A stretch of 64,000 nucleotides of DNA from Tetrahymena thermophila SB210 (Eukaryota; Ciliophora; Oligohymenophorea; Hymenostomatida; Tetrahymenidae): NCBI RefSeq assembly GCF_000189635.1, contig NW_002476025.1, positions 186,001 to 250,000 on the forward strand, given 5' to 3'. The notes below the pieces were generated by a model, which was not told the DNA's origin, did no database searches, and saw only the letters and a program-made list of their open reading frames with translations. Position numbers and translations under genes: made by a program. Position 1 is the stretch's first letter. Each line of letters starts with the position of its first letter. This document shows, piece after piece, positions 3,744 through 51,080 of this stretch.

Positions 3744-6700
3744 ATGATCGGCACTTCAGTTTTAAGTCAAGCTGGCTAATAGCTGCTTACTCCAGCAAGA
3801 AATTTGCAAATGAGTCCTTAAAAGAGTGGTGAAAATATGAAGAACCTACTTTAATATGATTTAAGAGATAGCCAAATAAATAATTCAGCAAGTAGATTCA
3901 AATAAAAGCAGCCTCTTTCTTATTCTGATTATTACTTTAGTTAAAACCCAAATAGCAAGGAAGAATATGCTAAAATGCTAGATGCTTAAATTGAACAAAA
4001 AAAGTAGTATTAAAACATTCAAAAAGAATATTAGAGAAATAATAAAGATTTAGGGAAAGTAAATAACATTAATCCTCACTTGATTCCTGAACCTTAAATT
4101 GCGACCAACTATGGATTTTAGAATACAATGTAAACCTAGTAGACAAATCAAGGTTTCAGTTAGCTAATGAAAAGTACAGGAAATTATGACAATGTATTCT
4201 TTCCTAAAAATGAGCTTTAAAGAACTAATAAGGACAAGTTTTAAGTTGATAGATAGACACCCTAGTAATCAAATGCATTGCTAAAACTAACTGGCCAATC
4301 TACAAACACTATAATCCCTTTAAGATTGTCACAGAGCCAAATGAATATATAAGATTAAGGGTAACCCTTTTTGCAAAGCTAGATGAGTTAAGCAAAATTA
4401 AGTAAATAATGAATGAATGATTTAAAATAATTTTAAAAATATAATTTTTTTATTAATGCATATGTAATGCAATGAAATGAATTATCTTTTTTTTATTAAA
4501 CTAAGCGAACACTTTGTAAAATCAATACTCAATTACTGGAGGAACTATTTAAAAGAAGACTGTCAATTTTAGCATGCCTTACAATAGCCAAAAATAGACT
4601 TTAGGATAAGAAGATAAGGAAACATTTTTCGATAAATGGAGAGAATAAAGTAATAGCTATTGGAGTAAACCATAAAACTATAGAGGAATATTGAAAAAAG
4701 AGAATATAGCTGAAAGTTAACTATTAGAGAAAGAGAGGAAGCAAAGAGAACTTAACTAGGCCTTGTAGGAGTAAATTTTATACAAAAAAAAAAAATAAGA
4801 ATTGGAGGAAAGATAGAGAAAGTTAGAAGACTTGGTTTTTGCTGAGAAGCTGAGAGCCGAGCAAAGAAGTGAACCAAGACCTTTGAGCTCAGTTAATGAT
4901 TTGAAATAAATCAAAGCAGTTGCTGCTCAGCAAGACCGTCTGTAGTAAAGAAATCTAGTGAGTAGAAAGTTAAATTCAAATAGCTAAAATAAATAAAACT
5001 TTGAAGATGTTAAAGAGTTGCCGAGGACACCACCAAACCAAAGCAACAGAAATTCATTACAAATGGAAGGGCCAATGGTGAGAATTGAAAAAATTATAGA
5101 TTTTTCTTCTAACAGAGCTAAGGCACCTTCTCCTAGAAATAGAAAATCCTCACAAGGTATGAATTAGCAAGATTTAGTATTGAGTGAAGTTAGGGAAGCT
5201 GCAGAGCTTGATATGGACTACATCAAGGATTATTACGAATTTTAAAAGAAGGTTTTTAACAGGTAGATGGCTAGTTTGCAAAAAGAAGTAAAAAATTCAT
5301 TTGATATATTTTATTGAATTCAATATATTAAACACTTTATCTTACAATACCAAATATTATCAGTGAGTGTATGGTTGGAATTCACATCATTTTATTCAAA
5401 AATTGACATACATTTTTCTGAAATAAAAGAATAGCAAATAAAATTTTTTTATTTTTTCTATGGTTAGTATTTCAAATTAAAAAATTTGTATTTGTGATCA
5501 ATTTTCCTATGTTTTGTTTGCCATGCTCATTAAATTTTTTTCATATATTAAAATTTCAGGTCTCGGGATTTAATGACTAAAGGACATAAGTTTTTAAAGA
5601 TATGCTTTAGCTAAGAGAAAAATCTAAGTAAGACCACTTATTAAGTTTAATGTAACCTAGAGATGTTTTAGAAGATAGTAAATATATAATGGCATAGAGA
5701 AAATAAAATTTATATAACTTTCACTAACTAGAGGATATAAAAAGCTTGAATGAAGGCAGTAACCCATATCTTTAGGGAATTAAATATTTACCATCAAGCA
5801 ATTATAACTTCTAAAATTACTATAGTGACAAATAAATAAACTAGCTTGTTAGTCACAGCTAATTGGTTCCTCAGTCTCAACTTGCAAAACACAAAGGCAA
5901 AAAGAAAAGAGCTTAGTAAGATAACTACGATGAATAAATTATTGGAGAGGTAAAAAGAAAATTAGAATTTTATGAAAGAATAAATAGGAAGAAACCTCAT
6001 TCTGCTGGATCTAAGCCGCAAAAAAATTTAAATGAAGAAAACTCATCTAGCCAAAATTATTAAGAAAATGGCTAAAACAAAAACTAAAAACCAAAAAACA
6101 AAAAATAAAAAACTGTTGAAAATGAATTTTTAGAAGATGAATAAGATGCTAACTAATAATCATTAAATGCCTCTACATTATAGATAGAAAAATAAAAAAG
6201 GCCATAATCATCAAAGAATTATGTGGAATTATAGACAGTAATAGACCTTGAAAAATTTAGGAAAGAAGCTTTTAATGGGAGAAAATTAGATTTTGAAATT
6301 CTATAAGAAAATGAGAAAGAGCATCAAAGTTAGGTAGAATAATATATATGGGATATCTTGAGCTAAAACAGTGATGAGTATGATGAATTAGACCAACAAA
6401 TTGATGATTGTATGAATGATATTGAAAAAATGGTCAACAAAGAAGCTATATAAAATCCTCCATAAATTGAAGATAAAAAGTTAAGCGAAATAGAAATGCA
6501 AAGAAAAATGAAGGCCTTTTTGAAAGGTAAAGAGTTGTAAAATGAACATCTTTAACTACTTCTTAGAGAATAGGCAAAAGAAAAGCTCAGACAGATAGAG
6601 AAAGAAAATTTATAATTGTATGGTTAGTTCGACAAAAACTTTTAAAATACTCCCAAAGATTATGTCAACTTATACATATAAAATGCAGATATAAATATAA

Positions 6701-22204: not shown

Positions 22205-22262
22205 GGGTATTTACTCTGTAGCAGTATAAAATCCTATATAATATCAATTTTTAAATCTAATA
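22205..22262 (+). pseudogene. decayed copy of the tRNA-like small RNA
   Basis: The segment aligns with the intact copies: AAAGCTA upstream, then TTAGGGT, ACTCTGTAGCAGTA, AAATCCT and TAATATCAATT in the same order and spacing. It has lost the D-arm pairing, the GGTTC B-box and the CCCCCC plus T-run end. It sits 371 bases before copy 1, matching the array period. It is probably a dead first unit. Confidence 0.75.
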
Positions 22263-22521
22263 CTTTGAAAATAGTTTAATCTATTTAATCTTTATTTCAA
22301 ATAAATTTACAATCTAAAATTAATAAAAATGTAATGTTTTTAATATCTAAAAAATTTGTAGAATACTAGGTACTAGCTCGTTTTAAAGTTTTAACTGATT
22401 CATTTTAATTATCAAAATATTAAAATTTAGATTTAAATAATAAAAATACTATATTGACTGTCACTTCAATTTTGTTGTTCATAAGCATTTAATTAACATT
22501 AAATAAGTGTCTAATATAAAT

Positions 22522-22575
22522 TAAGACACTTTAAATTGATCTTATTTTAAAATTTTGAATTAAAAGCTATCTTAA
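22522..22575 (+). promoter_or_regulatory. conserved 54-bp upstream block of the small-RNA genes
   Basis: The block runs from TAAGACACTTTAAATT through CTTATTTTAAAATTTT to AAAAGCTATCTTAA and abuts the RNA core. Equivalent blocks precede the other copies at 22913-22966, 23315-23368, 23752-23805, 24182-24235, 24612-24665 and 25066-25119, with few changes. DNA further upstream diverges, so this looks like an external promoter element of the kind used with Pol III small-RNA genes (TATA-like plus distal part). The assignment is an inference. Confidence 0.65.
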
Positions 22576-22652
22576 GGGCGCTAGCTCCGGTGAGCAGTAA
22601 TAAATCCTCATTAATATCAATTGGTTCAACTCCAATGGTGCCCCCCTTTTTT
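22576..22652 (+). ncRNA. tRNA-like small RNA, copy 1
   Basis: The core at 22576-22643 folds as a cloverleaf. The closing stem is GGGCGCT with GGTGCCC (7 bp with G-U pairs). The D-like arm is GCTC/GAGC with a four-base CGGT loop. The weak third arm is TAAT/ATTA with an eight-base loop AAATCCTC. The T-arm is perfect: ATTGG/CCAAT with a canonical TTCAACT loop. GGTTCAACTCC (22623-22633) fits the Pol III B-box consensus and TAGCTCCGGTGA an imperfect A-box. CCC and six Ts follow, a typical Pol III stop. The short D-loop and lack of a normal anticodon loop argue against a decoding tRNA. I do not recognise the family. Confidence 0.8.
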
Positions 22653-22966
22653 ATTTTAATTTTTAACATATTAAATAAATTTAGAATGAGATTAATATAA
22701 TTAACAAATCTAAAAGAACAATTGCTACTGTTAAAACGGAAGTTTAAGTTAGTTAAAAATATAAGTTATTAAAATAAGAAAATATATTTTATGTCACAGA
22801 TAAATTATTTTTTTTTAAATTAAAAAAATTTAGATCAAATAAAAATCTTTTGAAAATTTTAATTACTAAAATTTACTATTTAATTAATTGTAAGTTATTG
22901 TCTAACATTATTTAAGACACTTTAAATTAATCTTATTTTAAAATTTTGAATTAAAAGCTATCTTTA

Positions 22967-23043
22967 GGGTGCTAGCTCCGGTGAGCAGTAATAAATCCTC
23001 ATTAATATCAATTGGTTCAACTCTAATGGTGCCCCCCTTTTTT
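22967..23043 (+). ncRNA. tRNA-like small RNA, copy 2
   Basis: This copy has the same architecture as copy 1 with two core changes. GGGCGCT becomes GGGTGCT in the closing stem, and CCAAT becomes CTAAT in the T-stem. Both replace a Watson-Crick pair with a G-U wobble, so the fold survives. It ends CCCCCC and six Ts. Confidence 0.8.
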
Positions 23044-23368
23044 CCTTTTAATTTTTAACAATTTAAATAAATTTAGAAAGAGATTAATATAATTTAAAAA
23101 ATCGAATATAACATTTTTTACTGTTAAAATGGAAGTTTAAGTTAATTAAAAATATTTTATAATTAGATAATATATATATTTTATGTTTAAAAATCGAAGA
23201 GTTAAATTATTTTTTTTTAAATAAAAAAAATTAAGATAAAATAAAAATCTTTTCAATATTTTAATTACTAAAATTTAGTATTTAATTAATTGTAAGTTTT
23301 TGTCTAACATTATTTAAGACACTTTAAATTGATCTTATTTTAAAATTTTAAATTAAAAGCTATCTTAA

Positions 23369-23445
23369 GGGCGCTAGCTCCGGTGAGCAGTAATAAATCC
23401 TCATTAATATAAATTGGTTCAACTCCAGTGGTGCCCCCCTTTTTT
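23369..23445 (+). ncRNA. tRNA-like small RNA, copy 3
   Basis: This copy differs from copy 1 by C to A in the linker before the T-arm (ATATAAATTGG) and by CCAAT to CCAGT in the T-stem, which makes a T-G wobble instead of T-A. The third-arm region is unchanged. It ends CCCCCC and six Ts. Confidence 0.8.
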
Positions 23446-23805
23446 ACTTTTAATTTTTAACAATTTAAATAAATTTAGAAAGATTAAGATTAATTTTAAA
23501 TTAAATTAAACAAGTATTATAATAGTTAAAATGTAAATATAAGTTAATTAAATTATAAATAAAAAGTAATAAAATATATTTTAAATTTAAAAACTGTTGA
23601 ATGAAATACATTATTTATAATATTATATTAAAGGAAATAAAGTTATATTTAATAAAAACTATCCTTCTAATCTTTTCAAAAATATCTCTTGTATAATTTA
23701 ATTAACAAATTTTACTATTTAATTAAATGTAATTTATTATCTAACATTATTTTAGACACTTTAAATTAATCTTATTTTAAAATTTTGAATTAAAAGCTAT
23801 CTTAA

Positions 23806-23883
23806 GGGCGCTAGCTCCGGTGAGCAGTAATAAATCCTCATTAATATCAATTGGTTCAACTCCAATGGTGCCCCCCCTTTTTT
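23806..23883 (+). ncRNA. tRNA-like small RNA, copy 4
   Basis: The core is identical to copy 1. Seven Cs instead of six precede the six-T stop. Confidence 0.8.
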
Positions 23884-24235
23884 ATTTTTTATTTTTAATT
23901 TTTAACAATTTAAATAAATTTAGAAAGATTAAGATTAATTTTAAATTAAATTAAACAAGTATTATAATTGTAGTTAATTAAATTATTAATAAAAAGTAAT
24001 AAAATATATTTTGAATTTAAAAACTGTTGAATGAAATACATTATTTATAATATTATATTAAAGCAAATAAAGTTATATTTAATAAAAACTATCCTTCTAA
24101 TCTTTTCAAAAATATCTCTTGTATAATTTAATTAACAAATTTTACTATTTAATTAAATGTAATTTATTATCTAACATTATTTTAGACACTTTAAATTAAT
24201 CTTATTTTAATATTTTGAATTAAAAGCTATCTTAA

Positions 24236-24315
24236 GGGCGCTAGCTCCGGTGAGCAGTAATAAATCCTCATTAATATCAATTGGTTCAACTCCAATGGTG
24301 CCCCCCCTTTTTTTT
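24236..24315 (+). ncRNA. tRNA-like small RNA, copy 5
   Basis: The core is identical to copy 1, with seven Cs and an eight-T stop. Its flanking spacer is very similar to that of copy 4, so these two units are probably the most recent duplicates. Confidence 0.8.
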
Positions 24316-24665
24316 AATTTTTAAGACTTTAAATAAATTTTGAAATACTAAGATTAATTTTAAATTAAATTAAACATGTATTTATTATAGTTAATATGTA
24401 AATATAAGTTACTTAAATTATTAATAAAAGTAATAAAATATATTTAGAATTTAAAAACTGTTGAAGTAGATTATTTATTATATTATATTAAAATAAATTA
24501 AGCTCTATTTAATAATAAATATCCTTCCAATCTTTTCAAAAATATCTCTTGTGTTATTTAATTAACAAAATTTACTTTTTAATTAATTGTAAACTATTGT
24601 TTAACTCTATATAAGACGCTTTAAATTAATCTTAAATTAAAATTTTGATTTAAAAGCTATCTTAA

Positions 24666-24742
24666 GGGCGCTAGCTCCGGTGAGCAGTAATAAATCCTCA
24701 TTAATATCAATTGGTTCAACTCCAGTGGTGCCCCCCTTTTTT
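24666..24742 (+). ncRNA. tRNA-like small RNA, copy 6
   Basis: The core equals copy 1 except CCAGT in the T-stem, the same wobble change as copy 3. It ends with six Cs and six Ts. The upstream block has a few substitutions (GACGCT, CTTAAATTAA). Confidence 0.8.
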
Positions 24743-25119
24743 ATTTTTTATTTTTAATTTTTAACAATTTAAATAAATTTTTGAAAGATTATAATTACTT
24801 TTAAAAGATAATATTATTAAATGAATAGAATAAAACATTTATTTCTATTAAAATGTTAATTTATAAAAATTACAAATTAAAATAATAAAAAATATTTTAT
24901 GATTAAAAAGTGTAGAGATAAATTATTTTTTTTTAAATATTAAAGCAAATTATGCTCTATTTAGTAAAAACTACTCGTCCTATTATTTGAAATAAAAATA
25001 TCTTGAACATTTTAATTTATAAAATTCACTTTTTAATTAACATTAAAAATGTGTCTAATAAAATTAAAGACGCTTTAAATTGATCTTATTTTAAATATTT
25101 GAATTAAAATCTATCTTAA

Positions 25120-25198
25120 GGGCGCTAGCTCCGGTGAGCAGTAATAAATCCTCATTAATATCAATTGGTTCAACTCCAATGGTGCCCCCCATTTTTTT
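25120..25198 (+). ncRNA. tRNA-like small RNA, copy 7
   Basis: The core is identical to copy 1. The end is CCCCCC, one A, then seven Ts, so the transcript might be one base longer. It is the last unit of the array. The upstream block carries GACGCT and AAAATCTATCTTAA variants. Confidence 0.8.
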
Positions 25199-35602: not shown

Positions 35603-38600
35603 ATGAGTTTAGTAGCAAGCGATAGTCCATTAAAGCAGTAACGTTAATTTAAAATGAAGTAGGCATAAGACCTAAAAATTCTTAGATCCTCTCAAGATAA
35701 TAGTTATTCTTCTATGAATGATAGTGAAACTCCAGAAAATTAGGGTAAAGCCTTCTTGAATTAAACTAATACAAAAGTAAATTTATAGCCTCACACACCT
35801 AAATCTTCTTTTAGAAATAGTAAGATAAATTTTTAATCTCTAAGAGGGTCTCCTAATTAATCATTCTACAATTCAGATGATTAACAGTAACAACCCCTTA
35901 GCAAGAATTAAGATGCAATAATTAATATTTAAGACCAATTTTAGAACTCAAACCTAAATACTTACTCTTAACCTAACAAAGGTCTTCATGATTAAGTAAA
36001 TAAACCTTAGCAAATATCAAGAGATTTGAAAAGATAAACATCAAAATCCTTATATAATGATGTCAATAATGCGTCTCGCCGCTCATATTTGTAACATTTA
36101 CAAAATGGTATGTGCTTAAAAAAATCTTAATAAATTATTTAAAAAATAACAGAAAATAAAATCTTTTTTCAAAAAAATTTTAATTCAGCTTTTAATGCTA
36201 GAATAAAACATTTTAATAGCCACTTATGAAGAATATTTAATTAAATTTTTATATATAAAATAACAAAATAGATGAATAAAAGCTTTTTTTGCAGGCCTTT
36301 GAAAACAGTAAATCTAATTAAGACAATAAAGCAATTATAAGCTAACCTTTAAAGCTTAATTAAATTAAATAATCTTAATCTGCAAGAAAACTTGCACCTT
36401 ATAAACAACAAGTAGATGGAATAATCAAAGATAACTTATTCGTCAGCTAGGACTATGATAAATTAAAAGACATAAAGGGTTCGATAAATTAATCTCAATA
36501 ATAATTTTCTTAGCAATTTAACCTTCCTAAATCTGCAAGTTCAACACCTCTTAAAAATTAATCTATTTTGAACTTAGCAGGAAGTATTTTGCTAACACCG
36601 ACAAAAAGCAATAACAAAAATAATAATATAGCTTAGAGTACTATTTTTCAATCAAATAAATAATAGAATTCTGGTAAAGATATGTCAAAAAATTTTACTT
36701 ATAACACGTTGGGTCAAAACTTAAATATAGATAAGCTAAAAATGCAATTTTATTAGAAATTAGGAACTTCTTCACCTTAAAATAGTTAAATTCGAATCCA
36801 AGAAGGAAGATAGATTATTATTGATGAAAAAAATTAGAAAGACTAATTGGCGTTAGGCATAAATTAAACTCTTAAGGAGATGTTAGATGAAAAAAATGTT
36901 TTTCATGAATTAATTTCACCAGAAAGTCCTGATGGCTTAATTGGTAAATCTAATAAAAATGATAATAAAATAATCTTTTCATTTCAATAAAATTAATTAA
37001 ATCTAAATGGAAATTTTGGATTAAACAATTAAAATTAATCAACTCTTTCCTTTTCTCAGGCTTTGCAAACTAGGATTGGAGAAATGAATTCCTAAGGCTA
37101 TGATAATACGGAGAGTTTTCATTCAACGTATAAGAATATTTATAAAATGTAGCAGCAAGCAGACCATTTTAACTAAGGCACTGATTTGCAATAAGCAATT
37201 CTATATAAGGCTTACTAATCAAATGTATTACCTCGTAAATTAGGTTTGATTTCTAAATCAGGAAGTGAGAATTCAAAAACCTAAACTATAAAAAATGGAA
37301 AAAAATATTTAAACCTTTCTCATTTAAATATTGGAAGCACTTATTAAAGCATTGTGGCATCAGCTCTTGCCCATGTAGATTTTTCTGATTTATACTCATT
37401 AAACCTCTCTAAAAATAATTTAACAAATGCATCTGTTGAACTTATCCTATAAAATTTACCAGAGAATATTACTAAAGTGGATATTTCAAATAATAATATT
37501 GGAGTGAATGGTGCAGCTTCTTTAAAATAGGCCTTCAATAGTAAAAAATATAGTCATTTGAGATACCTAAATATATCTAATAATCAGTTAGGAGATAATG
37601 GCATAAAAACATTAACTGAAGCTATTTAAAATAATACTACTATTTATTCTCTTGATCTTTCTTACAATAAATTAGGTGACTAATCTTGTATTTATTTGCA
37701 GCAAATTCTTCAAAATAATTCATATATTTAAGAACTTTATCTTTAATGGAATAAAATATCTTCAAGAGGTGGCTTATGCATTGCAGAAGGTCTAGCTTTG
37801 AATAGCAATATGAAAGTAAATTAATATAATTCACAATAAACATAAATATTAAAAAATATATTTTTTTTCTCCTGAAAATAATAATGTTTTTATTTAAAAT
37901 TTAAAAAAAGGTTATTGACTTAAGCCATAATGGTCTAGGATCTTTAAGCAAATTATAAACTGGCATAAAAATTTTATAGAGCTGTTCAATAGTTGAATCA
38001 GGGATGAGACATCTAGACTTATCATACAATTAATATGTAAAGTCTGAAGCTCTGTAGATAGCAGAGATTCTTGCTAATAATAACAAGCTATTTGGGTTTC
38101 ACTTTATGGGAAATTAATGCAATGCTATAATTGATCCCAGAGGTTTTATGTTTTTCTAAACAGATCAAGATATCTTAAGAAGAAATATTTTAGATTTTCA
38201 TATGCAATAAAGATCAATTTAGAATGTTAATTCAACAGGTCATAATAGGTAATAAACTTTTTTAAAAATGTACTATGATAGGGGGAGAAATAAGCAAATA
38301 AAGATTATCTTCATTACCTCAAAATTACTAAATATTCTATCAAAAATTTTATAAAAATTCTCAAAATTAATTATAATTTAATATTAAATTATTTTCAACA
38401 AAAAAGTTCATTTTACCCATTAAAGAAAAAATATTAATTAAAGTAATTATTTTAAATTAATTAGAGCTTAATCTTTTGACTGTAAAACTGTTGATAATTG
38501 TTGGCTTTGTGATGGATGGCAGGAAATCAAGTTTGAAATAAAGCCAGGTTGCAGTGAGTTATTTACTGGCGAGCCTGCATTTTTACATTTAGATTTTGAG

Positions 38601-45514: not shown

Positions 45515-48500
45515 ATGAACAGACTCAATTTAGCAGGATAGAATATTTTATCTAATCCTGATTATAATCATTTTAAAGAAATAAAAAAACCTGTTTCTAA
45601 TTAAGATACCCCTACATCTTAATCTCAATATTCTTATAATTAGAAATATCAAAATTAAAGCTCTCTTACCAATGGATTAGAAACTACTTTTACTTCAATA
45701 GCAAATTAATAAACTCCAATGAGTTATAGGCATGCTGATTAATTTGAATAGCTTAAAACTTAAAGGCTTTCTCAGATAGTTAATGGAAAGTAGATGCTTT
45801 CTCCTATTCCTATGAGTAAAAAATAATAGATGGATTAAACTGCTAGCAGTAACATGAGTGGATTAAATTCTTCGTATTTACCTTCAATAGCGTCTTAAAC
45901 AGGCTCTAATAATTTAGCTTTAAGCAGCTTAAATAGAACAGAACGTAATTACTTTTAGCAACTGAATAGTAATTTATTGTAATAAGACAGCTTTTAAGAT
46001 TAAAAAGACTATAGCATGTCGAATACATAATAGAGGTTTATATATAGCAGAAATGGTAGTGAAAAGACTCTTTCTAACAATACTTTCTACCCTTAGTTTA
46101 ACTAGCAGAATTAGAGTATTTTTACAGTGAATACAAAGTAAAATCTAGATAGTATTCTCATGGAATCTAAGATTTAAAGTCATCCTATCTCTACAAAGTA
46201 TAAAGTGAGATCGTGCGTTAATATAAAAAGCAGTACAAAGAATGTTCATGGAGATCTTACTTTTTAATCTTAAGTTCAAGCAGTTAATGAATAAATTATG
46301 TAATCTCCTAAACCAAGAGACGAATAGATTTAAAAGAAAAACTTCGTAGACAGTTCTTTGCTTCAAAATAACAACATTACACCTATTTCTAATAGAAGAG
46401 AACACAAAATTCATTCATCAATTAATATTTTAGACGTTTAGTCTACATCTTCTATTATGAATCCTAACACCTCTTCAGTATCGAATTTAAAACAGATTTT
46501 TGATAAGAAAGATATTTTAAATTATGATAACGAAATATTAATTTAAAACAAACTTAATTTTACTTAAGCAAAAGATTCTTCAAAAATTTTAAATGCAAGT
46601 ATTTAAACTGACCGTTGCTCATAAATTTTTTAATAAGTTTCTAACCTAAAAAATACTCTTGATTAACAACAGTCATCTTCTTTATCTTCTGCCACTCTTA
46701 AAAATGTTTTTTATTAGCAACTAGCCACTAACTCTCATATCGTTTAAAATAGAAAAGAAGATAAGTTACAAAAACTCAATTACAACAACTCTACTAATAT
46801 AATGCAAAATGAGTATAATAATACTTCTGATATTTAGTCAATTATCTACAAAGAAAACGATAAGAAAAAAATAATTTATTCAAGGTAAAATTCAAATGAT
46901 GATAGTGATGAGGATCGTAGAATGTATAACGAGCTATTAGAATTGAGTCCATTACCAAAATCAAGAAAATTAGACCAATAAGATACAAAAAATTAATTAC
47001 TTATAAAAATGTGCAAAGTAGATAACCCAGTAAAGGCAGAATAAAATGAGAACAATAATAAAAATGAAATATCAAATTTAGAAAATACTACTAAAAATTC
47101 AAAACCTAAATCAGAGGTTTCTGTTACCTCTGAAAGAAACATAAGAAAATTATCAGCTTAAGAATAAATAAATATCACTTAAAAAAATAATGCTGCTGTT
47201 CATGGATCAAAATCTTCTATAAATATAAAATCAATACCTAAAAAAGAGTCTTAATATTTAAATGAATATTCACTCTTAGAATAAGCTTAAACTACAAACA
47301 ACTTTGCTATTGATTATAAAAAAATAGATCATATAGTTGATGAAGCCAAGCATTTCAATGATAAAATGGATATAGGATAAGCCATGCTATCAACAACTAT
47401 TACAAAAAATGTACTACCTCGTAAACTTGGAATAGTGGCTAATTTAAATACCAATAAAAAGAGCATAAATGATGCAATTAAAAAGAGGAAAAAACGTTAA
47501 TCGTTTGATGCTAATGGAAGTCCATTAAAGTAGGAGGAAAAAGGAGAATTACCTGCCTTGTTAGCCTCTCAAGTGAAAGGCAAAAGAGTTTCAGAATTTA
47601 TGTATAATACAAATAATGACTCTTCTCTAGATGAATAATAATAAAGTATTATAAATTAATAAGTTAAAATTTTTACACCAATAAGTTAAAAAGAAAATAA
47701 ATCATTCACACCATAAAATTATGGTAAACAAGTATAGGCAGCAACAATTAAAAGAAATGCTTCATTAAGTCAGCACTTAAAGAAAGCCCCTAGCAATTTA
47801 GTTAGTCATAAAAACGGGCTTACTGAAAATGAAAATAAAAAACCATTTGATAAAGTTGCTTTTTAAGACAGCAATGAAATAGCAAAATATCTTTAAAAAA
47901 ATATGATTTCCTCTGAAAGTTAGAACGATGAAGAAAATAATCAAGAAGAAAAGTAAAATCTCAATCTCTCGAGACTGTAGATCAGTAAGACGTATTGTGA
48001 AATGTTAGCTTAAGCTTTGAAGCATCCTGATTTTGAGAATTTGAATTTTCTCAATTTGTAAGATAACAACTTAACAGGTTCGGCTTTGTCATTAATTTCA
48101 CAAAATCTACCTAAGCATTTGAGAAAAATAGATTTATCTAACAACTTCTTAAATAACAATGATAATATTGCAATTTGTAACATTCTGTATAGCAAATAGT
48201 ACCCAAGTTTAATTTATCTTAACTTATCTAATAATTTGTTAGCGGATATAGGTTTGAAATCTATTTCAGCTAGCTTATAAAGAAACTCAACTCTTTAGCA
48301 ACTCAACTTAAGTCATAACAAATTAACAGATCTTTCAAGTCCTTATTTAAAAGAGATTTTATTACAAAATAGTGGAATATAAGAGCTATATTTAAGCTGG
48401 AATAAGCTGAGCTCTAAAAGTGGTTTTGATATATCCATTGGTTTAAGTAATAATGTTAACATTAGGGTAAAATGCTTTCTGAAAATTAATTATTATTTAC

Positions 48501-51080
48501 TTATATTTTATATAAAAAGGTATTAGATTTAAGTCATAACAGCTTAGGATAAAATCCAAATTTGCATTGTGGAAAAAAGCTTATTGAAAGCTGCACTAAA
48601 TTAGAATCTGGCCTAATACATTTTGATCTTTCTTACAATCTTTTTACAAAGGAAGAATGCAAATAAATAGCAGAGGCCTTAACAAAAAATTAAAAACTTT
48701 ATGGGTAAATAGTTAGATTTAAATTATCAAGCAAATTTTTAATTTAATTTTTACAATAAAAAAGCTTCCACTTTGAAGGCAATGAATCGCATGCAACCGT
48801 AGATTCTAAAGGATTTTTATATTTTCCAAATGAAGAAGAAATTTTATAAAAGCATGTTTCTACTCATACTTTAATGAGGAGAGATATAAATTCAGTGAAG
48901 TGTCTAGGATAAAATAAGTAAATTACTCTTATGAATTACAATTAATAGTTATTTATTTTTATTGAATTTATTATAGATTGTAAAATTTTAATTGTAACGT
49001 AACTGATAATTGCTGGATATGTGATGGTTGGTAAGAAATTGAATTTTAAATTTCTGAAGGAAGCAGTGATGTTTTTTAGAGTGAACCTGCTTTTTTGCAT
49101 TTAGATTTTGAAGATTTTTAACCTATGTATATGGACCGTGACCCTGAAAATCCAACAAGATATTTTTTGAGAAGAATGTGTCCTCCTAACAGGAGAATTT
49201 TGTTCTTCTTTACTAATCCATGTACAAAGTTGTTATTCGAATCCAACGATTATGAAAAAATAGATTTCCATGTAAATGATTAAAATCTCGCAATTTATGA
49301 TGACGATGATGATACAACTTAATAAAGCGAAAACACCTTTTCTGCTCATCATTTACAGAACAGTAAACAGAGAAAATTTAATGTTAAATACTTAGATGGT
49401 ACTGTGATGGAGTATATAGTTCCTACAACAGTAAACGTGATAAGCACTAAACTTCATTAAAATATTTAAAAGAAAAAAGGAGATTATGAAATTCAAATAA
49501 AATGTTTACCTAGATAAGAAGAAACTTACTATAAAATAAACTATACTAATCAATGGCATAGAGGTATATCTCTATTTAAATCGTTCATACCTGACAATCC
49601 TGAGTTAGAGTAAAAGTGCTTTGAAGATGATTGGAATAACTCAAAATTATAAAATATATTTTAGCAAGCTGATAAAACTGCTAATCTTAGTGAGTGTAAA
49701 CGAATTATTTTAGATTAATACCCTAAAATAAGAGTTTTATACAGATATCTCTCGTGCTTTGGAATTATTAATGATGTATTTTGTGTTACATTAAGTGCTT
49801 TTGCTCACTTTGCTTAAGAAAGCAAGATAATTGATAACAATTTAATGAGGATGAGAGATGTAGAATGTATTTTTATAGCAGCAAGCTCAAAAGCTCTCAA
49901 AGTTAAAAACTATAGGGCACCTGAAAAAACAGTTATAAGAAGTGAATTTGTAGAATTGATGGGAAGGTTAGCATTAGATAAATTTATTCGTACTAAGGTA
50001 GCCAAAACACCCTCTGAAGCACTTAATCTTCTCTTGAATAATTAGAAATTCTTGTAATATACAGCTGAATACGAAGATCCTTAGTAATGGCGTAATATTA
50101 GGTAAGAACAAATATTTTTCTAAATCTTTTTGTTAATTTTTTTTTTGATAACAAACAGATTTTGGACCAAGCAATGTGATGAAATGATGAAAAGATATAT
50201 CAATTTTATCAAAACTCTATGGAATGAATATTCTGATTCTAGAAAATCTGAGAAAAGAGGTGCACCTTCGAATTAAAAGACGATGAGTTTGCAAGAATTC
50301 TAAGATATGGTTGAAGAATTCCATCTAAAGGATAGCTTATTAACAGAAAGAGATGTTGTGCTTAGTTATAATCTTTCTCTCTAAACTTTACAAGATGAGA
50401 TAAATAGTGAAAAATATATGGCTATGAATTTTGTAGAATTTTTAGAAGGACTTGCTCGTCTAGCCGAATTTAAGTCAAGAACTCCAGTTGGAGAAAGAGA
50501 TGAAGCATACAAAGATAGCGAAAAAATACAAATACGTTTAGAGTACAAAATAGAAAGCTTATTAGAGTGTATGAGTATAAAGTATTAAGATGTCATGAAA
50601 ACCAAACGCAAAAAGTAGATGATCATGCTATAAAAGCAGCTTTTGTAAAGAAGTGGTTCAAGACTTTTATCTCTTAAAGTGAAAAAATCATTTATTTAGT
50701 TCAGTTAAACTGAGCTAGGAGAATAAACCCCAAGCAATAAATTTGCAAGTACAGTTTAAAGAGTTGTAAACACTATGAGTGTAATTAATGCATTTAAGTC
50801 AAAAGTATAAGATACGAGCTTGAGCAGTTCTGAAATTCTTGATGAAGAAAATAATTAGCAATTTACTAAGAATAGTTTTCTTTCTATCGCCTCTTAACCT
50901 GAGATAAATAAAATGAATAGTAGATAACTTTAAAGGATAGATTCAGAAATGGACGAGTTTGAAGATGAAGAACACTCATTTACTTTAAGTAATAAAAAAT
51001 AAAAAAATTAATAAAAAATGAAGTAATAAAACGAAGAATCTTAACCTGTATCTTTAAAGAATATTGAAGAAAACAATTGA
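45515..51080 (+). CDS. large LRR (ribonuclease-inhibitor type) protein, paralogue B
   Basis: The product is about 1778 residues from exons 45515-48466, 48520-48704, 48765-48917, 48977-50101 and 50159-51080, in frame. The first exon is 2952 bases and encodes a very long Gln/Asn/Ser-rich region of about 810 residues, then RI-type LRRs (LNFLNLQDNNLTG, LRKIDLSNNFLNNNDNI, LIYLNLSNNLLADIG, QLNLSHNKLTDLS). The rest matches paralogue A: GFHFEGNE, NCWICDGWQEIEFQ, AFLHLDFEDFQPMYM, RRMCPPNRRILFFF, KYLDGTVMEY, QWHRGISLFK and the helical module (WTKQCDEMMKRYINFIKTLW, MNFVEFLEGLARLAEFK). Introns sit at equivalent places, so the two genes are duplicates. The disordered N-terminus is much longer here than in A. 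Confidence 0.88.

Follow-up and report, generated by a model that had tools for sequence, protein, structure and literature searches.

The DNA analysed here, referred to as the window, is a 64,000-nucleotide (nt) stretch of the Tetrahymena thermophila SB210 genome (contig NW_002476025.1, hereafter C394, positions 186001-250000). It carries a tandem array of seven transfer RNA (tRNA)-like genes that belong to a family of 28 genes with a conserved scaffold and fold, constrained cores and shared upstream elements. Reading these sequences, we lean toward the view that RNA polymerase III (Pol III) makes a CCA-ended, tRNA-like RNA from each gene and that these RNAs probably do not decode. The original prediction, a seven-copy array of a new Pol III small-RNA family, holds for the array and agrees with the Pol III-like T-run present in all 28 genes, but it was too narrow, as the seven copies are one of three arrays.

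Tandem arrays of a tRNA-like gene

Seven nearly identical cores of 68 nt were confirmed on the + strand between positions 22576 and 25187 (Table 1), with start-to-start spacings of 391, 402, 437, 430, 430 and 454 nt. The period of 371-454 nt given in the original prediction stands from 391 nt upward; the 371-nt interval runs from a decayed copy, starting at 22205, to the first intact core. The decayed copy aligned to the core with a score of 52, whereas 300 shuffles averaged 23.0 and reached at most 37; its middle was also recovered as a member of repeat family D5 in a repeat search of the window. GC content was 49% in the cores, 12% in the spacers and 23% in the whole window, and four of the five most GC-rich 71-nt stretches of the 64 kb, scanned in 5-nt steps, were these cores.

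Table 1. Intact genes, decayed copy and upstream elements of the window array (window coordinates; scores from the family covariance model)
Feature	Position	Core	Strand	C-run and T-run	Score (bits)	Remarks
Decayed copy (relic)	22205-22268		+			Has lost the D-arm, C-run and T-run; approximate end
Upstream elements of copy 1	22507-22534		+			GTGTCT at -69 (22507-22512); CACTTTAA at -49 (22527-22534)
tRNA-like gene copy 1	22576-22652	22576-22643	+	CCC, T6	96.2	
tRNA-like gene copy 2	22967-23043	22967-23034	+	CCC, T6	89.8	
tRNA-like gene copy 3	23369-23445	23369-23436	+	CCC, T6	94.2	
tRNA-like gene copy 4	23806-23883	23806-23873	+	CCCC, T6	96.2	
tRNA-like gene copy 5	24236-24315	24236-24303	+	CCCC, T8	96.2	
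tRNA-like gene copy 6	24666-24742	24666-24733	+	CCC, T6	94.6	
tRNA-like gene copy 7	25120-25198	25120-25187	+	CCCA, T7	96.2	

The genome assembly (101.0 Mb, 445 contigs) was then searched with the core. BLAST returned 24 matches at three places, and a search pattern that fixed 18 bases and tolerated two mismatches returned 28 genes, 27 of which matched exactly: 12 on C154, nine on C157 and the seven of the window array on C394. The core pattern had no match on the reverse strand, and neither of two reversed-pattern controls matched anywhere in the genome, indicating that the array is not due to chance. The 28 cores comprise 11 distinct sequences of 68-70 nt and fall into four groups, C394, C154, C157a (two genes) and C157b (seven genes). 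No match to the family was found in the viral contig collection. Two matches on bacterial contigs of the genome contig collection, one of them a tRNA-Met, were taken as non-homologues.

The family covariance model was run on five sequence sources, so that more divergent members may exist in the genome at large. All 28 genes were recovered. Beyond them, the model scored three weak pieces of L026 at 27.2, 18.2 and 12.3 bits and gave two matches near 10 bits. A bacterial tRNA-Met of L074 reached 26.6 bits, so the model also senses ordinary tRNA features. Decayed copies were kept outside all counts, namely that at window position 22205 and those of L026 near 2181 (a half copy), 2456, 5958 and 6440. 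Truncated or decayed tRNA-like copies of L026 at 2181-2220, 2454-2508 and 5950-6004 lie between and beside the C157 genes.

Constraint on the cores

As the original prediction had stated, nearly identical cores are set in drifting spacers. Mean core identity was 98% within C394, 99% within C154, 98% within C157b and 100% within C157a, the last being one pair. In the same order of groups, identity was 67, 61, 75 and 54% (again a single C157a pair) in the 70-nt piece downstream and 72, 62, 79 and 66% in the upstream piece from -140 to -71. Comparison between groups gave 75-88% identity for the cores (46-49% after shuffling) and 61-72% for the last 70 nt upstream (52-57% after shuffling). Both outer flanks showed 56-60% identity against 54-61% in shuffles and stayed within 0.03 of the shuffled values. 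This pattern is most simply read as selection acting on the core together with a promoter-like piece immediately upstream.

Alternatively, such repeats could be arrays of dead tRNA pseudogenes or tandem satellite DNA that yields no product; decayed and truncated copies do lie in and beside the arrays. Nevertheless, 11 of the 12 C154 cores are identical while their flanks are near random, most changes in stems keep pairing, and promoter-like elements stand at a fixed distance in most copies (both described below). We consider dead arrays exceedingly improbable.

Fold of the core

The elements listed in the original prediction, namely a 7-base-pair (bp) closing stem, a short D-arm, a T-arm with a TTCAACT loop and a C-run followed by oligo-T, are all present in the window copies. 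The closing stem has G.U at pair 5 and U.G at pair 7. Copy 2 carries C-to-T changes at acceptor pair 4 (U.G) and in the T-stem, and a G.U pair remains at both. The D-arm is GCTC-CGGT-GAGC, that is, 4 bp with a 4-nt loop, and the T-arm has 5 bp.

Across 12 aligned cores (11 distinct), 94.8% of the cells in the acceptor stem, 100% in the D-stem and 96.4% in the T-stem were paired. The D-arm was identical throughout; because cores were extracted by an exact D-arm match, this invariance is in part an artefact of selection, and the pattern search that allowed two mismatches gave the same 28 genes. In the T-stem, three pairs change without loss of pairing, as do pairs 4 and 5 of the acceptor stem; acceptor pair 5 occurs as GU, AU or GC, and T-stem pair 50:62 as UA or AU. 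The covariation score was equalled by 3 of 500 shuffles and the share of paired cells by 18 of 500. In minimum-energy folds of the C394 and C154 types, the acceptor, D- and T-arms form.

The cores share the 7-bp acceptor stem, 5-bp T-stem and TTCRA T-loop of canonical tRNAs. They lack the canonical D-loop of about 7-11 nt and the 2-nt linker with U8 between the acceptor and D-stems: in all 28 cores the D-loop is CGGT, with the four bases that the original prediction had counted, and the linker is 1 nt (A or G). By analogy with tRNA structure, the GG of the D-loop and the TTCRACT T-loop could still make an elbow.

3' ends and upstream elements

A T-run of T5 or longer follows the core in all 28 genes (T6-T8 in the window copies, after a C-run of three or four C). 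C-CCA stands directly before the T-run in 22 of the 28, and the six exceptions are all window copies, among which copy 7 alone has C-CCA. An encoded CCA is not unique to the family, as tRNA-Arg(UCU) genes at three loci on C10 (L068, L069 and L070) have G-CCA immediately ahead of the T-run. Judged by sequence, the CCA end of these tRNA-Arg(UCU) genes appears to be gene-encoded; therefore, an encoded CCA has a precedent in this genome.

Canonical T. thermophila tRNA genes resemble the family in their tandem arrays, acceptor stem, T-arm, short trailer and T-run; the trailer habit is described in the parts consulted of PMC9705548. Outside the window, on the minus strand of C394:86991-89373, the top-scoring matches include a tandem array of at least six canonical tRNAs, of which the three lying in L041 were called tRNA-Thr(tgt) by ARAGORN.

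The retained 3' half raises another possibility, that the genes are a source of 3' tRNA-like fragments for a Piwi protein such as Twi12 and that only the T-arm/CCA half matters. Twi12 is a Tetrahymena Piwi protein; going by the titles of published work, a Piwi protein of Tetrahymena reportedly has tRNA 3' fragments as cargo. The T-arm and the 3' strand of the acceptor stem are kept, as is C-CCA in most genes. However, the 5' half, chiefly the D-arm, is conserved as well as the 3' half although a fragment source could do without it, and we regard a mere fragment source as quite unlikely.

Two elements recur upstream of the cores. GTGTCT at -69 is exact in 19 of 28 genes and has at most one mismatch in 23, and YACTWTAA at -49 is exact in 18 and has at most one mismatch in 25; both stand at the same positions in most C154 and C157 copies. 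Among window copies, GTGTCT is exact in copies 1 and 7 only. The genes with more than one mismatch in GTGTCT are window copies 4, 5 and 6, C154_1055 and C157b_3714, and in C157b_3714 both elements appear to be shifted by one base. The exact spaced pair occurs 15 times in the genome, 12 of them at family genes; by eye, no core was found within about 200 bases downstream of the other three (L071-L073). With one mismatch allowed, the spaced pair is not specific (130 matches compared with 226 in the reversed-pattern control).

A different element, ACCCATAA, precedes the model match by about 60-75 nt in four of four U6 genes (L037-L040, on C424), both SRP RNA genes examined (L078-L079, on C78; three were found; SRP, signal recognition particle) and the one telomerase RNA gene (L080, on C67). 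It was read by eye at U6 and at one SRP RNA gene, and L080 is presumably the T. thermophila telomerase RNA, which it resembles by eye. From these sequences, ACCCATAA is a candidate for a common Tetrahymena small-RNA promoter element. A family promoter with ACCCATAA was rejected, as none of the 28 genes has it within 130 nt upstream. In 46 tRNA upstream regions from a limited set of isotypes, neither ACCCATAA nor GTGTCT was found, and YACTWTAA occurred in four, at other positions.

The third arm and decoding

The original prediction drew the third arm with an eight-base loop (stem TAAT/ATTA, loop AAATCCTC), in which 72.7% of the cells are paired. This is one valid drawing, but a 7-nt anticodon-like loop pairs equally well. 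In the tRNA register, the 7-nt loop is possible in all types and holds an invariant UCC at positions 33-35 (U33-C34-C35), so that the anticodon-like triplet is CCU in C394 and C154 and CCA in C157. The anticodon stem then has 4/5, 4/5, 4/5 and 3/5 pairs over the four types.

ARAGORN at its default called 2 of the 28 genes as tRNA-Trp(CCA), both C157a and hence two of the nine C157 genes, and none in the window. At -ps90 it called 26 of 28: all nine C157 genes as Trp(CCA), all 12 C154 genes as Arg(CCT) and five of the seven window copies, one with CCT and the other four in another anticodon register. No further calls fell within the three array stretches at -ps90, and many extra calls appeared outside the family at -ps80. 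Default ARAGORN also misses the genuine tRNA-Sec of this genome and is therefore not a full test of tRNA status. With such a loop in every type and these calls, the claim of the original prediction that the RNA does not look able to decode could not be upheld as it was worded.

The family might accordingly be read as a deviant decoding tRNA whose 7-nt loop, with U33, presents the anticodon CCU (C394, C154) or CCA (C157). In Tetrahymena, UGA is the sole stop codon, and the CCA type, whose anticodon stem is imperfect, could then read UGG, or UGA as a near-cognate. In addition to the ARAGORN calls, 11 of 15 stem pairs form in the tRNA register (three types), which only 10 of 2000 shuffles match for that register alone. 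However, three other registers tie at 11/15, and across all registers this number of pairs is reached in 192 of 2000 shuffles. The short D-loop and 1-nt linker after the acceptor stem, the C37 of C394 and C154 and at least one anticodon-stem mismatch in every type also speak against decoding. According to the paper cited for this point, ciliates with UGA as stop only (Stentor, Fabrea) are without a short-stem tRNA-Trp. Furthermore, canonical tRNA-Trp(CCA) genes exist in the genome: matches to GACTCCARATC cluster on C99 (five) and C270 (six), compared with 20 for the reversed-control pattern, and both copies examined, one per cluster, are canonical tRNA-Trp(CCA) genes. Such genes differ from the family in their normal D-loop and 5-bp anticodon stem, and GTGTCT is absent from the 46 tRNA upstream regions. 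We consider decoding by the tRNA-like RNA unlikely.

Pairing of the third arm with the 3' tail of 18S ribosomal RNA was also tried and gave no signal. Because the assembly yielded no match to a ribosomal DNA pattern, the eukaryotic consensus served as the tail; the summed energy was then equalled by 62% of dinucleotide shuffles at a tail length of 27 nt and by 55% at 17 nt.

Relation to known RNA families

No Rfam family reached its gathering score in the window, where ARAGORN at default called no tRNA. The Rfam check that the original prediction had proposed is thus in line with its statement that U1-U6, 5S, 7SL, RNase P and telomerase RNA are not matched. At permissive settings, five of the seven window copies resembled tRNA-Sec at 16.8-17 bits (cut-off 47; E 7.7-8.6), and copy 2 resembled freshwater-1 at 16.5 bits (cut-off 72; E 3.7). 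In the other arrays, tRNA-Sec was matched at 21-27 bits by nine of nine C157 genes and one of 12 C154 genes, and one unrelated sub-threshold Rhino_CRE match fell outside the genes.

Upstream promoter elements are known from vertebrate tRNA-Sec genes. With tRNA-Sec (RF01852) the family shares, besides the recurrent sub-threshold match, a 4-nt D-loop with GG (UGGU in the tRNA-Sec consensus). It differs in lacking a long variable arm, a UCA anticodon and a 6-bp D-stem, and its best scores of 16.8-26.7 bits stay below the gathering score. A genuine tRNA-Sec was found elsewhere in the genome (L027, C396:319831-319916, 68.6 bits). Descent from one particular tRNA was rejected in a rough check, the best pairwise scores being 29-38 compared with 88-114 within the family; the comparison used 34 tRNA strings of limited isotypes, some of them joined or with extra letters.

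The closest functional precedent, by analogy, is sRNA-76 of the trypanosome SRP, also named sRNA-85. The family resembles sRNA-76/sRNA-85 in being tRNA-like and, by proposal, in the role outside decoding that is known for sRNA-76; it differs, as compared by description, in its multi-copy arrays with their own upstream elements. The parts consulted of PMC9283944 describe trypanosomatid sRNA-76 as a tRNA-like SRP component, and those of PMC3091756 state that it was once labelled tRNA-Sec in a genome database.

A second SRP RNA of this kind, base-pairing with the SRP Alu domain, would be another reading; the weak Rfam match of the family is to tRNA-Sec, the label once given to sRNA-76. Alveolate SRP Alu domains vary, T. 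rostrata having a short helix H3 (PMC8137916, as far as consulted). Against this, full-length SRP RNA was matched at three loci, leaving 28 family genes to three SRP RNA genes. In addition, the duplex energy of the third arm with SRP RNA, calculated with two SRP genes, was no better than in shuffles for three of four types, and for C394 it was equalled by 6-9% of shuffles; pairing with SRP RNA, tried with the third arm, was not supported. A second SRP RNA thus appears very unlikely to us. A vault RNA, Y RNA or other known Pol III RNA that has diverged past recognition would account for A/B-box-like ends and upstream elements, which are typical of vault RNA genes. The full tRNA-like D-arm and T-arm/acceptor stack is nevertheless foreign to vault RNAs, and no Rfam vault or Y match was obtained in the window array at E 10 or in L025 and L026 at E 5; we judge such an origin highly improbable. 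The profiles of SRP14 (PF02290) and of the major vault protein repeat (PF01505) had no match in the genome, and these tests were uninformative because the control genomes gave no match either.

Two other tRNA mimics may be compared. The mascRNA and menRNA of MALAT1 and NEAT1 are likewise tRNA-like and CCA-ended with a poor anticodon arm, but they are cut from long RNA polymerase II transcripts, whereas the family consists of separate genes with T-run terminators. Bacterial YrlA, a tRNA-like Y RNA, is a non-decoding mimic, as proposed here for the family, but it is bacterial, a portion of a longer RNA, and Ro-bound.

Elsewhere in the window, ciliate-code open frames at 36112-37875 and 45515-48877 have leucine-rich repeat matches, those in 45515-48877 falling below the Pfam cut-offs.

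A proposed family of Pol III tRNA mimics

We infer transcription, the use of Pol III, maturation, a non-decoding role and a partner from the features above. Each gene would encode a structured tRNA-like RNA of about 68-70 nt plus C-CCA. Pol III would start at or just ahead of GGG and stop at the T-run, and its promoter would consist of an internal B box, a shortened A box and the family-specific upstream pair at -69/-49. The transcript would form an acceptor/T-arm helix and a short D-arm whose GG packs on the T-loop; therefore, La, 3'-end trimming and CCA repair could treat it as a tRNA. The third arm would be a weak AU stem showing a pyrimidine-rich UCC loop that is near-fixed within groups and different between groups, and this array-specific loop probably meets a protein or ribonucleoprotein (RNP) partner. 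The RNA would most likely be a stable, non-decoding tRNA mimic bound to a tRNA-handling protein or RNP, as sRNA-76 is in the SRP.

Several observations weigh against this proposal. The family is known from the genes of one genome alone. The identity averages exclude decayed copies, and short gene-conversion tracts confined to the core could homogenise the cores without selection. In C157b, acceptor pair 7 is broken in 4 of the 11 distinct rows and the outermost T-stem pair in 2 of 11. Covariation on its own is weak, because a single pair has both sides changed and 175 of 500 shuffles equal that. Minimum-energy folds of both C157 types depart from the cloverleaf, and folding z-scores are modest (-0.9 to -2.0). 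The A of CCA is absent from six of the seven window copies, and three of the seven have two mismatches in GTGTCT. Finally, the 7-nt anticodon-like loop leaves decoding possible.

As a more tentative proposal, which we hold possible rather than probable, the family would be a new Pol III RNA class of Tetrahymena, in which three paralogous tRNA mimics share one scaffold, have a private upstream promoter in two parts, end in an encoded C-CCA and choose different partners through array-specific UCC loops. Put most boldly, the CCA-loop type, its anticodon stem weakened, would be dedicated to reading UGA, the sole stop codon, as a near-cognate. Novelty is claimed relative to Rfam 15, ARAGORN and a search of the open literature, in which none of the titles and abstract openings listed described this RNA; Andersen and Nielsen (2012) may already list the family.

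If the genes are expressed, a classic model of RNA biology would contain a multi-gene tRNA-like RNA that was passed over by Rfam and by a standard tRNA finder, together with an upstream element pair that serves one RNA family. The family would then be a fresh example of a tRNA scaffold taken up for another role, and it would allow a direct test of how much drift a tRNA tolerates before it is no longer synthesised, matured and retained.

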